A DNA stretch of 64,000 nucleotides from Chryseobacterium sp. (GTDB lineage: Bacteria; Bacteroidota; Bacteroidia; Flavobacteriales; Weeksellaceae): assembly GCF_029240215.1 (NCBI RefSeq), contig NZ_JARBTK010000007.1:1-64000 (forward strand), in the 5' to 3' direction. The position numbers were made by a program, and so were the translations under genes. Below the pieces are notes generated by a model that saw only the letters and a program-made list of their open reading frames with translations, ran no database searches and was not told the origin of the DNA. Positions 762-57,530 of the stretch are shown in pieces. The stretch's first letter is position 1. Each line of letters starts with the position of its first letter.

Positions 762-1433
762 ATGACGACAAAACAATCCAACAGGCTGAGCATGGCCAAA
801 ACCCTCAAACAGTTTTTTTCCGTTGAACAAGGAAAATATACAGGTAATAATCCCTTAACCGTAAGAATTTCAGAGCTGAACATCATTGTAGATAATCTGG
901 ATGCTTTAGCGGGAATTCAGACTACCGACACCACAGCAAATACCGGCTTAAAAACAGACGCAAGAACGAAGATGATCAGCCTTACGGTAGCATATGCCAA
1001 TACGGCTGCAGATTATTTTGATGGTCAGGACAGTCCTTTAGCCAAACAGCTTACTACAAGCAAATCGAAGATCAAAAACATGACCGGGGTAGAAGCGAAA
1101 ATTTACTGTCAAAAGCTGTACAATATAGTAAATGAAAACACTGTAAATCTTGATCCCGATTATGTGACCTCAGCCGAAGTACAGGACTGGCTGACAGCAA
1201 TTAATAATTTTGATGCAAAGGCATATGATGCAGGAGTAAGTATTGACACAACCCAAAATGCAACGCATGATCTGCAAAACGAATTTAAAAAGTTCAGCGT
1301 ATGTTTAAGCAAAATCGACAGGCTGATGAAGAAATATGATGTTCTCAATCCATCATTTCACGGAAACTATAAGCTTTCGCGCAAAATCTCAGATTTGGGA
1401 ACCCGTCACAACAACGAAATTCCATTAACATAA
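762..1433 (+). CDS. hypothetical protein
   Basis: 223-aa ORF followed by a terminator-like hairpin; no family recognised. Confidence 0.75.
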   Translation: MTTKQSNRLSMAKTLKQFFSVEQGKYTGNNPLTVRISELNIIVDNLDALAGIQTTDTTANTGLKTDARTKMISLTVAYANTAADYFDGQDSPLAKQLTTSKSKIKNMTGVEAKIYCQKLYNIVNENTVNLDPDYVTSAEVQDWLTAINNFDAKAYDAGVSIDTTQNATHDLQNEFKKFSVCLSKIDRLMKKYDVLNPSFHGNYKLSRKISDLGTRHNNEIPLT

Positions 1434-1441
1434 TAAATATA

Positions 1442-1473
1442 TGAAATACCTGATTTGATGATCGGGTATTTTT
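1442..1473 (+). terminator. Rho-independent-like terminator
   Basis: aaatacctgatttgatgatcgggtattttt hairpin with T-run just after the 762-1433 stop. Confidence 0.6.
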
Positions 1474-1482
1474 GTGTGAGAA

Positions 1483-1797
1483 ATTTCTTTACCATTCATC
1501 AAGATGTCTTTCCGTAGCAGTCAGAAGGTATTCCTGATCGTAAAGAAGGTATTCCTTTTAATACAGTTGATATTCTTTAACAGGCAGCTGGTATTCCGAA
1601 CCGTTAAGATGTCATTCTCAGTTAGATATTTTGCATTCCGGTGTTTCCATATAATATTCAATATGGGGAAGCCGGGATTCCTTGAAGGTAAGACCACATT
1701 CGGAGATAAACAGCTTGTTTTCCCGATCGTACGGATAGTATTCTTGAATAATGAGCGGCAATGATGGTCAGTAAAATAATATTCAACAGGTCAATAA
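1483..1797 (+). repeat. degenerate 21-bp tandem array (about 12-15 units)
   Basis: Units such as aaggtattcctgatcgtaaag / aaggtattccttttaatacag / ctggtattccgaaccgttaag follow each other every 21 bp; the overlapping ORF 1504-1764 shows a 7-aa period (KVFLIVK KVFLLIQ LIFFNRQ LVFRTVK ...). Confidence 0.8.
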
Positions 1798-7030: not shown

Positions 7031-8020
7031 ATGATATATTCAAGAAACAGAAGATTGAGAGTAAATGAATCTATGAGAGGATTGGTAAGAGAATGCAGCC
7101 TTTCTACAGATGATTTTGTAATGCCGATTTTCGTAATGGAAGGTGAAAATAAAGAAGAAGCAATTTCATCAATGCCCGGAATTTTCAGACGAAGTATTGA
7201 CTTGACGGTAAAAGAATGTAAAGAATTATTTTCTTTAGGCGTAAAAGCGGTCAATCTTTATATGAAAGTTTCAGAACATTTAAAGGACAACACCGGAAAA
7301 GAAGCTTGGAACAAAGACGGATTGATGCAAAATACCATTAAAGCAATCAAAGATGCCGTTCCGGAAATGATTATTATGCCTGATGTAGCTTTAGATCCTT
7401 ATTCAATTTACGGTCACGACGGAATCATCGAAAACGGAAAAATTCTTAACGACGCGACCAATGAAGCTTTAGCAAGAATGTCAGTTTCACATGCAGAAGC
7501 CGGAGCAGACATTGTAGCACCGAGTGACATGATGGATGGGAGAGTTTTGGCGATTCGAGAAGCTTTAGAACAAAATGGGTTCCATGATGTGGGAATTTTG
7601 AGCTATGCTGCAAAATATGCAAGTTCATTCTACGGACCTTTCAGAAGTGCTTTAGACAGCGCTCCGAAAGACAATATGGAAATTCCAAAAGATAAAAAGA
7701 CCTATCAGATGGATTTTCACAATTCCCGTGAAGCTTTAAATGAAGTTTTCAAGGATGTGGAAGAAGGTGCAGATATCATCATGATAAAACCGGGACTTCC
7801 ATATCTGGATATCGTTGCAAAAGTACGTGAAGCCATCGACTTACCAATTGCAGTTTATAACGTAAGCGGAGAATATGCAATGTTGAAGGCTGCTGCTCAA
7901 AACGGTTGGTTAGACAATGATAAAGCCATTATTGAAAGTTTAACCTGCTTCAAAAGAGCAGGAGCAGATATGATTTTCACATATGCTGCAAAAGAAGCCG
8001 CAATGATTTTAAATAGATAA
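7031..8020 (+). CDS. hemB: porphobilinogen synthase (delta-aminolevulinic acid dehydratase)
   Basis: 329 aa; RRLRVNESMRGLVRE, MIIMPDVALDPYSIYGHDG, IMIKPGLPYLDI, YNVSGEYAM. Confidence 0.96.
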   Translation: MIYSRNRRLRVNESMRGLVRECSLSTDDFVMPIFVMEGENKEEAISSMPGIFRRSIDLTVKECKELFSLGVKAVNLYMKVSEHLKDNTGKEAWNKDGLMQNTIKAIKDAVPEMIIMPDVALDPYSIYGHDGIIENGKILNDATNEALARMSVSHAEAGADIVAPSDMMDGRVLAIREALEQNGFHDVGILSYAAKYASSFYGPFRSALDSAPKDNMEIPKDKKTYQMDFHNSREALNEVFKDVEEGADIIMIKPGLPYLDIVAKVREAIDLPIAVYNVSGEYAMLKAAAQNGWLDNDKAIIESLTCFKRAGADMIFTYAAKEAAMILNR

Positions 8021-34452: not shown

Positions 34453-34701
34453 ATGGAGACAAATATAGCACACGAACAAACTGTAACTAAGGTAATGGAA
34501 GCTCTTGAAAGCATTCGTCCGTTTCTGAACAAAGACGGTGGAGATATTGAGTTGATTGATGTGAAAGAAGATACTGTTTATGTAAAGCTTTTGGGAAACT
34601 GCTCTGGCTGTTCTCTGAACTTTTCAACCCTGAAACTGGGTGTAGAAAATACCATTAAACAACACGCTCCTGAGATTACGAAAGTAGTGAACGTAGAATA
34701 A
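34453..34701 (+). CDS. NifU family (C-terminal domain) Fe-S scaffold protein
   Basis: IRPFLNKDGGDIELIDVKEDTVYVKLLGNCSGCSLNFSTLK; start set at ATG 34453. Confidence 0.92.
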   Translation: METNIAHEQTVTKVMEALESIRPFLNKDGGDIELIDVKEDTVYVKLLGNCSGCSLNFSTLKLGVENTIKQHAPEITKVVNVE

Positions 34702-34724
34702 AAAATACCTAATATATTTTTTGA

Positions 34725-34751
34725 AGACAGGCTTTTAGTCTGTCTTTTTTT
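34725..34751 (+). terminator. terminator
   Basis: agacaggcttttagtctgtcttttttt. Confidence 0.65.
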
Positions 34752-35061
34752 GCTTTTAACAAAATCGTTTTTGTTCTGAAAAGTGTGGTTTTGGTTGATT
34801 AGTGATCTGTTTTGGTCTCACACTGGGAATTTTACCTTCCGAACCGAAAATTTCTGCTTCAGGATAAACTTGTTTAGGTATTGTATCGAATTTTTTTGGT
34901 TTTGAACGATATTCTTTCGGTCTTTTACTCTATCGTTTCGGTTGTTTAGAGGTTGGTTTCGGTTATTAACCGAAAAATATACGTTATGAACCAGAAACTT
35001 TAGGTATTGAACCGAATCGTTTATGTTTAGAACCGAATCTTATTATTAAATAACCGTATTG
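34747..35061. repeat. phase-locked 21-bp degenerate tandem array, 15 units
   Basis: Unit starts at 34747+21n without any indel, e.g. ttttggttttgaacgatattc, tttcggttattaaccgaaaaa, tttaggtattgaaccgaatcg, tttatgtttagaaccgaatct. Confidence 0.88.
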
Positions 35062-35121
35062 TATAAATGAAAACCACAGGCTAAACCTTGACAAGGTTGA
35101 CTGCACAAGATTTACTTAAAC

Positions 35122-35171: not shown

Positions 35172-38100
35172 TTACTTTACAATTACTCTTTTTACCTGTC
35201 CTTCAGAAGTTTTGATTAAATAAACTCCTGTTGATAATTTTGAAGTATCAATCGTCAAAGCATTCTTTTCTTTTCCAAGTAATTTTCCAGACATATCGTA
35301 CAATTCATAACCTTGAGCTCTGTTAAAATACAATATATTTCCTTTGTTTACAGGATTCGGGAAGATATTGAATGTTGCTTTTTCAGTTTTCACTTCTCCT
35401 GTAGATAAAGTTGGGGAAGGAGCAACTTCGTACATTGATAAAGTTCCGCTGATTTCGTTGGCAACAATTACATAGCCTTTTCCTGTTGTTGTATTTTGAG
35501 GAGCGATGTATGTAATTCCTTCCGGACCGTTATCACCTCCAAATGCAGAAGTGCTTCTGGAATGCTTGTAATCTGTAAATGTTACATTGTTGGGATCTGT
35601 TACGTTGTATACCATGACACCTCCCGTTCTTTCTAATGTGATGAAGGCGAAAGTTTGTCCGTTGATCGTTCCTAAAGTTACGCCTTCAGGTTCCGGACCT
35701 TTTGCACGGCTTCTTGCTTTTGCGCCGTTTGCTTCATTATCAGCGTTGAAAATTAATGGATGATTGGCTGCAGTATATCTTTCAAACTGATCTCCGCTGT
35801 CATAAACGATTTGTTTTGTGTCAGCATTGAAGATTGAGAACGAACGAGCTCCCAAAGCATGAATTTCCTCATATTCTGCATCGGCATCTGTATTTCCGTT
35901 CACACTTGTTACTCTGAATCTTCCTAAATTATTTGAAGATTTTAAAATTGAAGCATTTGGGAAAACTGTTGAATCTAAACCGTAAGTTGCGGCACCCACA
36001 GTAGTTCTTTCGCTGAATCCTCCCAAATCTTTTTCATCTCCTTCGTTGGCTGTAACGATATAGTTTGTATTTCCTACTTGATAAGATGCCATTGCATCCG
36101 GATTGTAATAAGCTTTTACAGGCCAGTTGGCGATTAATATTTCTCCGTTGTTATCAGAAGCATCAAAACCGTTTCCTGGAAGACTCATGTCTTTTTTACC
36201 TAATCCCCAAATGTTGGTAAGTGTTTTTGTAGCTAAATTTACCTCAATCACGGCATTGTTTTCCTGACAAGAAACCCAGGCTTTTTGGTTATCTGCGCTG
36301 ATTGCGATGTATTCAGGTTCAAGATCCTGAGCCAAAGTGCTTGTAGATTTTACTTTTCTTACTCCTGAAGCAGCCAATGTTGCTTCCTGACCGTTAAACT
36401 GAGTAAATCCAAGTGTAGTTACATTCGTTTGTGTTAATGCCTGAATTCCAGCAACAGTTAATGAAGGAATGTCAATAATACTGATCGAGCCTTCCGGATC
36501 AACTGTGTATGCATCGTTTGGTTCGCCTTCATTCGCCGTCATTACTTTTGTTCCGTCCGGTGAAAAAGTAATCATATCCGGTAAAACTCCTACAGAAACC
36601 TGCTTCAGGAAAGTCCCGTTAATATCGAAGAAAACAACAGATCCATTGCTTTGTGCATTGGTTCCGTTTGGAGAAGCTACTGCAATTATTCCGTTTTTCA
36701 CGGCGATACTTGTGATTCCACCGTAAGGAAGCATATTTACTGTACTAATTACAGTTGGTGCAAGTGGATTGGCAAAATTGATGATGTCGAAAACATCTGT
36801 TAAAGAACTGATTGTGAAAAGTCTTTGTGTTGCAGGATCGTGAACTACAATTTCTGTTGAGCTTGTGCTATTTCCTGAAGGGTCAAAGCTTCCGATATAA
36901 TTTAACTGAACCTGATTTGATGCAACCGGAGCTGCTTTATCATTATCAACAATATAAACAGTAGATAAGGCTTCACCGGAAATGGTTGCTCCAACAGGAT
37001 TTTCAAGACTTAAAACAAAATATTCAGCCATTTGTTCTTCCAAAGTATCATCAATAATTGGAATATTAACCGTAACGCTTGTCGTTGCCGGAGTAATATT
37101 AATGGTTTGATTTGCTAAAGTAAAATCACTGGTGTTTGCTGTATTAAAAGGTGCAGGTTTTACAACCAGATTCACCGTTGCATTTGAAGGATTGTTAACA
37201 TTGATCTTAAATGCCAACGTTCCTGAATTTTCGTTAACCTTTACAAATGTTTTATCTAATGAAATTGATGTTCCTGCCGTAGTGAAAGTTGTAGAAGTTG
37301 CCGTTGTCACTGCATTATCACTTGTGTCTTCTACCATATTTGGTTTTAATGCTAAATAATACGCCTGATTCGGAACCAAACCTCCAGTAGGAATTACCGT
37401 AATCTGATTATTAGCAAAAGTTGTAGTGAAAGGAACAACTGCTCCTGTTGCATTGCTTAATCTTAATTCGATTAAATTTTGAGCATTTGCGGCGGTAATT
37501 GCTGAGTTGTCAAGCAGTCTTACATTTTCGTTAAATGTAATGGTAGGATTTGTTGTTGTAGAAGCGTTGTTTACATTATTCGCAGGCAAATAGGTCACAG
37601 TGGGTGGAGTAGTGTCAACTCCACCAACTGCCGTTGCGTCAACCGTGAAATTGTCAAAACGATTGTTTCCTACATTTCCTCCTGCTCCTGTTGCGAACTG
37701 AACTTTAAGTTTAAAATTAGGGTTGTTTGATGCTCCCGAAATTGTTGAAAAATCAAAAGTAACCAGTTGCGGATTGGCATCTAAAGTAGTAACGGTTTGA
37801 TAGGGTATAAAAGTAGTTCCGTCCAAAGAATAAGACCACGATTGCGTTCCAGCTCCCGAACCAGACCTTCTTGTTGTAAATTTTACAACCACATTATTAT
37901 ATCCAGTGGTTGGTAAATTAAATTGTACATTCCCGTTGATCGGATAATTGTATCTCAAATGTGTACCTGAAGGGTCTCCGTTTCTTGCGTTTAAATTCTC
38001 AACATTAAAGTTTTGTGATGTTCCTCCTGCAAAATCAATGAAAGTATCTGTATTTCCCGTTCCTGTTGAAACCGCAGTGATAGATCCGTTTAAAAGCGTT

Positions 38101-38237
38101 GAAGTGGGAGCTGTAATAGCTGCAACTGAAGCGTTGTTGTTAAAATTCCAGTAATGAATCAAAGTCTGTCCGGAAACTGCGCCATGAAACAACGCAGCAA
38201 TGGGTAATAAACTTCTTAAAAGGTATTTGTTCCTCAT
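35172..38237 (-). CDS. choice-of-anchor I family protein with Ig-like and Calx-beta-like regions and T9SS type A sorting domain
   Basis: 1021 aa; ITFNENVRLLDN Ig-like, Calx-beta-like segment, EPEGVTLGTINGQTFAFITLERTGGVMVYNV, C-terminal FNIFPNPVNKGN...STGVYLIKTSEGQVKRVIVK. Confidence 0.85.
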   Translation of the reverse strand: MRNKYLLRSLLPIAALFHGAVSGQTLIHYWNFNNNASVAAITAPTSTLLNGSITAVSTGTGNTDTFIDFAGGTSQNFNVENLNARNGDPSGTHLRYNYPINGNVQFNLPTTGYNNVVVKFTTRRSGSGAGTQSWSYSLDGTTFIPYQTVTTLDANPQLVTFDFSTISGASNNPNFKLKVQFATGAGGNVGNNRFDNFTVDATAVGGVDTTPPTVTYLPANNVNNASTTTNPTITFNENVRLLDNSAITAANAQNLIELRLSNATGAVVPFTTTFANNQITVIPTGGLVPNQAYYLALKPNMVEDTSDNAVTTATSTTFTTAGTSISLDKTFVKVNENSGTLAFKINVNNPSNATVNLVVKPAPFNTANTSDFTLANQTINITPATTSVTVNIPIIDDTLEEQMAEYFVLSLENPVGATISGEALSTVYIVDNDKAAPVASNQVQLNYIGSFDPSGNSTSSTEIVVHDPATQRLFTISSLTDVFDIINFANPLAPTVISTVNMLPYGGITSIAVKNGIIAVASPNGTNAQSNGSVVFFDINGTFLKQVSVGVLPDMITFSPDGTKVMTANEGEPNDAYTVDPEGSISIIDIPSLTVAGIQALTQTNVTTLGFTQFNGQEATLAASGVRKVKSTSTLAQDLEPEYIAISADNQKAWVSCQENNAVIEVNLATKTLTNIWGLGKKDMSLPGNGFDASDNNGEILIANWPVKAYYNPDAMASYQVGNTNYIVTANEGDEKDLGGFSERTTVGAATYGLDSTVFPNASILKSSNNLGRFRVTSVNGNTDADAEYEEIHALGARSFSIFNADTKQIVYDSGDQFERYTAANHPLIFNADNEANGAKARSRAKGPEPEGVTLGTINGQTFAFITLERTGGVMVYNVTDPNNVTFTDYKHSRSTSAFGGDNGPEGITYIAPQNTTTGKGYVIVANEISGTLSMYEVAPSPTLSTGEVKTEKATFNIFPNPVNKGNILYFNRAQGYELYDMSGKLLGKEKNALTIDTSKLSTGVYLIKTSEGQVKRVIVK

Positions 38238-57248: not shown

Positions 57249-57354
57249 GATTTTGAATAAATAATTTACGACAGTTTTACAAATCTTTATAACCTCTTTT
57301 ATAACTACCAACAGGGGGTTAGGTAAGGGGGGTAAAGCCCCTTTGGAAGTGGCT

Positions 57355-57530
57355 GTGACCGGTTGTTCAAGTGTTTATTGGCTGTTGTGAAGTGTCTACA
57401 GATATTTATCTAACGGGTTGGAGACACTTTCTCAAGTTGTCGGAGGCAGTTATACCAATGGTCGGAAGTAGTTTTTAAGTGCCTTGACATACTTATATAA
57501 CCTCATCTATACACTTTTGTAAATGATTAC
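57355..57530. repeat. weak degenerate repeat, about 22-bp period, about 8 units
   Basis: cagatatttatctaacgggttg / gagacactttctcaagttgtcg / gaggcagttataccaatggtcg / gaagtagtttttaagtgccttg at 22-bp steps. Confidence 0.5.

Follow-up and report, generated by a model that had tools for sequence, protein, structure and literature searches.

A degenerate 21-bp palindrome array between convergent genes of a Chryseobacterium, and a class of related arrays linked to small helical proteins

Known systems of iterated palindromic repeats

Iterated, often palindromic sites that lie in helical phase beside the gene of a partner protein are a feature of sopC, parC and replication iterons. In sponge RNAs of the CsrB/RsmZ type, many short imperfect palindromes are found within a few hundred bases, and the ToxI RNA of type III toxin-antitoxin systems is a tandem repeat, with a period of about 36, that lies upstream of a small gene. 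In REP/REPIN clusters associated with RAYT genes, the pairing of repeat and gene is specific to the repeat variety (Bertels & Rainey 2011, PMC3116915).

The array described here lies in a window of 64,000 nucleotides of a Chryseobacterium sp. contig, and it and its relatives resemble each of these systems in part. As in the REP/RAYT case, the array consists of intergenic palindromic units, with a cluster beside a single-copy gene, copies elsewhere in the genome and a pairing of each repeat variety with its gene (PMC3116915). However, each array is a series of 8-20 direct repeats with a spacing of exactly 21-22 bp, and the linked gene encodes a helical protein with no match to a transposase, of the Y1 (HUH) tyrosine type or any other. 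With plasmid centromeres and iterons they share direct repeats in helical phase (21-bp steps in 244 of 247 cases) and the frequent proximity of a gene for a possible partner protein, but they are chromosomal, their unit sequence varies while the period is constant, and the linked protein matches neither plasmid or phage proteins nor families of the ParA, ParB or Rep type. The packing of short imperfect palindromes into a few hundred bases recalls CsrB/RsmZ, whereas no sign of selection on RNA structure was found and the arrays often lie past terminators. Finally, a tandem repeat adjoining a small gene is reminiscent of ToxI, although here the repeat is downstream, its period is 21 and the linked protein has no toxin match. 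The gene-plus-array locus type is absent from the literature searched, and no description of such arrays was found in the full-text literature, in which few subscription journals were covered.

The array and its surroundings

The array is flanked by convergent genes and follows the intrinsic terminator of the left one, as the initial annotation had described (table 1); this terminator is conserved in relatives. The left gene is taken, from that annotation, to be NifU C-terminal-domain-like, and the product of the right one is presumably of the surface/T9SS type.

Table 1. Features of the window discussed in the text.
Feature	Positions	Strand	Basis
Gene for uncharacterised 223-aa protein, followed by terminator and second 21-bp array	762..1433	+	
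Intrinsic terminator between the 223-aa protein gene and its array	1445..1474	+	sequence
Second non-coding 21-bp array, units ending ATTC, z=11.9	1471..1764	.	
Presumed NifU C-terminal-domain-like gene, left neighbour	34453..34701	+	
Intrinsic terminator AAGACAGGCTTTTAGTCTGTCTTTTTTTG of the nifU-like gene, directly preceding the array	34724..34752	+	sequence
T-rich stretch, units 1-2 of the initial annotation	34747..34788	.	no GGT/ACC core
Degenerate 21-bp dyad array, 13 units	34789..35061	.	autocorrelation, dyad test, segmentation
Presumed gene for large surface/T9SS-type protein, right neighbour, convergent	35172..38237	-	
Dyad array of about 22 bp, AAGTGNCTNNAGNCACTT-like, beyond the terminator of a malate dehydrogenase-like gene	57300..57520	.	

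Over positions 34740-35065 the autocorrelation peaks at lag 21, with an identity of 0.561 (z=10.7 against dinucleotide shuffles), and the runner-up lags (84, 42, 63 and 105) are each a multiple of 21; since the maximum reached by 1000 dinucleotide shuffles at any lag from 3 to 109 was 0.42, the initially claimed periodicity is indeed beyond that of shuffled sequence. Segmentation from 34789 yields 13 units, every step being 21 bp. Thus, of the 15 units originally counted from 34747, 13 are clear, while those at 34747 and 34768 lack the GGT/ACC core. The left border is uncertain, because this coreless segment also resembles the T-rich sequence that follows the terminator in C. edaphi; to judge from its sequence, it is probably terminator flank and not array.

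The unit, with the consensus TTTnGGTTnTGAACCGAATnn, is a degenerate palindrome, GGT-N5-ACC, with a 10-bp linker (form TTTnGGTTnTGAACCGAA), and of the two half-sites GGT is dominant in the left units and ACC in the right ones. The unit profile has a dyad symmetry of 0.68, a value reached by none of 5000 column permutations; this property is absent from the initial annotation. The copies are so degenerate that Tandem Repeats Finder reports only 34987-35041, and, being contiguous and devoid of spacers, they do not have a CRISPR layout. Stop codons are present in all six frames, which bears out the non-coding status first assigned to the array. A/T phasing at 10.5 bp, an indirect gauge of curvature, is weak in the arrays (median z 1.1).

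In 80 of 80 Chryseobacterium-group relatives the array is absent from the nifU locus. The same nifU-downstream gap holds, in C. edaphi, an unrelated 238-aa open reading frame (L009 3351-4067).

Two more arrays are found in the window (table 1). That at the left end also has stop codons in six of six frames, and the layout of 762-1764 (gene, terminator, array) is like that of gene-linked arrays elsewhere. Its 223-aa protein has no homologue in 139 other genomes of the family, and no relation to the helical-protein superfamily described below was detected. A periodicity census, the scope of which was 860 kb, part of the host genome, returned several non-coding arrays of 21-22 bp; non-coding arrays with a different period were few. 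Three further host arrays were found with a sequence-only model, and an additional one, at C10:59.0 kb, with the pattern (GGTN5ACC-N10)x4.

Related arrays and the linked protein

Searching with a five-unit consensus led to arrays in three congeners, and the sequence-only model, at E<=0.001, matched 27 of 175 genomes, although what the weaker matches represent is uncertain. The (GGTN5ACC-N10)x4 pattern, with up to 3 mismatches allowed, gave 51 matches in 9 of the 175 congeners, in which both its spacing-22 and its mirrored versions gave 0; at the family level it matched 15 of 140 genomes, in 8 of 33 sampled genera. The best-kept arrays approach the ideal form GGTTCNGAACC with a linker such as CCAAATTTGG. 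Steps of 21 bp account for 244 of the 247 segmented in related arrays, under a segmentation that penalises other steps. Arrays are internally homogenised, yet every lineage has its own unit sequence.

Comparison of 13 orthologous pairs of arrays gave 0.08-0.20 changes per site at the GT/AC core positions and 0.32-0.45 around the dyad centre, the core being more conserved than the rest (P=5e-10), and in 11 of the 13 arrays conservation exceeds that of the flanks. The indels between orthologues include three of 21 bp and one of 84 bp, together with others of 1-2 bp, so that the phase lock initially proposed, with length changes in multiples of 21, is strong but not absolute. Judged from these comparisons, the spacing and the palindromic core are maintained by selection. 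In a separate case, an array (L129 about 7383-7558, L232 3036-3203) is nearly identical, flanks included, in the host genome and in a member of another genus, which suggests recent transfer of the region. An origin from plasmids, phages or viruses was considered and rejected for the array as well as for the linked gene; for the array, the sole phage matches were of 27 bp at E=0.3.

Many of the arrays follow immediately 3′ of a gene whose product is an uncharacterised protein of about 160 residues. The protein search alone recovered this protein from 44 of the 140 genomes of the family, in 14 of the 33 genera. When 30 distinct gene loci were chosen by that search, independently of the array, the best downstream period was 21 bp, at a score of at least 0.43, in 23 (and 42 in one more), as compared with 13 of 592 control ORF ends, and none of the 30 had a 21-bp array upstream. 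Distant homologues group into one superfamily when profiles are compared, and class-wide they show a 21-22-bp (or doubled) period downstream in 24 of 34 cases and upstream in 1 of 35. At 24 of 49 loci the gene and its array are separated by an intrinsic terminator, as compared with one at 76 of 613 control gene ends; the array is therefore often outside the mRNA of the gene. The existence of the array class is hardly in doubt, and nearly the same certainty attaches to its link with the superfamily.

The protein itself has no match above chance in Pfam, NCBIfam, PHROG or PDB, no transposase match in the first three and no relative in plasmid or phage collections. Its AlphaFold model is all-helical (pLDDT 84.7), and a fold search with this model in PDB and viral libraries gave no match. 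Superfamily members are mildly acidic (median pI 5.25) and have no DNA-binding domain or fold match, so that the protein may not be the one that binds the array. The host genome has at least five arrays and one superfamily gene, at C10:59154-59645, which adjoins the array at C10:59.0 kb; no such gene is found beside the nifU-linked array. A superfamily without assigned function tied to period-locked arrays in many Bacteroidota points to an unrecognised chromosomal system, and the gene-array link makes the roles of both the orphan superfamily and this widespread intergenic DNA testable.

Possible roles of the arrays

The reading to which we give the most weight, with a probability of roughly 45%, is that the array is a row of putative protein-binding sites in DNA spaced by two helical turns. 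Indeed, the conservation of the core and the lack of an RNA-structure signal (see below) favour sites read by a protein at the DNA level, although binding itself is what we infer. The nifU-linked array would then be a stand-alone copy of a DNA-level class with 8-20 imperfect palindromes per array; palindromes exactly two turns apart would let a dimeric or polymerising protein occupy every unit from one face of the helix and assemble cooperatively along the array. The superfamily protein may act as partner or co-factor of the binder, and arrays that, like this one, have no superfamily gene beside them may be served in trans. More tentatively still, the gene-plus-array locus type of the Bacteroidia may be a lineage-specific DNA-protein assembly platform, in which fast-diversifying palindromes are combined with the helical superfamily and further copies are served in trans; that the two-helical-turn spacing is the only fixed property of its palindrome rows is a proposal held with equal reserve. 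Three observations count against the platform: the mildly acidic superfamily protein with no DNA-binding match, the complete divergence of unit sequences between lineages, which would require a fast co-evolving or shape-reading binder, and the dyad symmetry, which is significant in no more than 13 of 24 distant arrays.

It is rather unlikely, but conceivable, that the arrays are a dispersing repeat family, similar to REP/RAYT, mobilised to new intergenic sites and, where no gene is present, without function of their own. The empty nifU site in the 80 relatives and the excess of host arrays over superfamily genes would fit such dispersal, as would the in-register alignment of two arrays from separate loci in a single genome (identity 0.61, z 3.5). 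On the other hand, the linked protein is no recognisable transposase, a target duplication was not identified, the core is conserved between orthologues, and no clear common unit order joins the nifU-linked array to others (z does not exceed about 2.7 on the + strand, which is suggestive only).

An origin as a functionless tandem satellite, in which slippage and homogenisation set the period and template switching improves the palindromes, is improbable. It would account for units that are lineage-specific and homogenised inside each array, but not readily for a period that stays at 21-22 in unrelated sequences, for the tie to a specific gene superfamily or for core positions conserved above the others.

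Even less probable is a non-coding RNA in which many small hairpins titrate an RNA-binding protein, in the manner of CsrB and CsrA. Every unit is a potential hairpin, one locus (L091) folds better than its dinucleotide shuffles (z=-3.8), and mismatches in the linker, on the gene strand, are somewhat more often G-T than A-C (177 versus 118). Against it, arrays fold no better than with their units in shuffled order, and within-unit pairing is below that of within-array shuffles (z=-5.3, where the core part of the deficit comes partly from unit selection; z=-3.2 for the linker alone). In the core, G-T mismatches are not in excess over A-C (153 versus 148), no Rfam family matches the array, and the position is often past a terminator. 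The RNA-level role raised in the initial annotation is thus not supported, whereas its preference for a role of the DNA itself over a coding one holds. A single long fold-back RNA was rejected, along with RNA hairpins, on the folding tests.

A relic of a protein-coding heptapeptide repeat, to which the divisibility of 21 by 3 and RFGSIPK-like heptads in some frames might point, is already close to refuted by stop codons, which interrupt every frame of this array and of nearly all its relatives, by the 22-bp arrays within the same class and by the dyad symmetry of the units.

Two further sites on contig C1 of the host may be mentioned. At L184 5098-5185, between an HU-like gene and the gene of an Xre-type regulator, four TCATGCGCATGA-like palindromes are spaced 22 bp apart and are probably an operator, outside the array class; near the end of the same contig, L188 15861-16049 is a strong 21-bp array of GGAATnnCATCT units.
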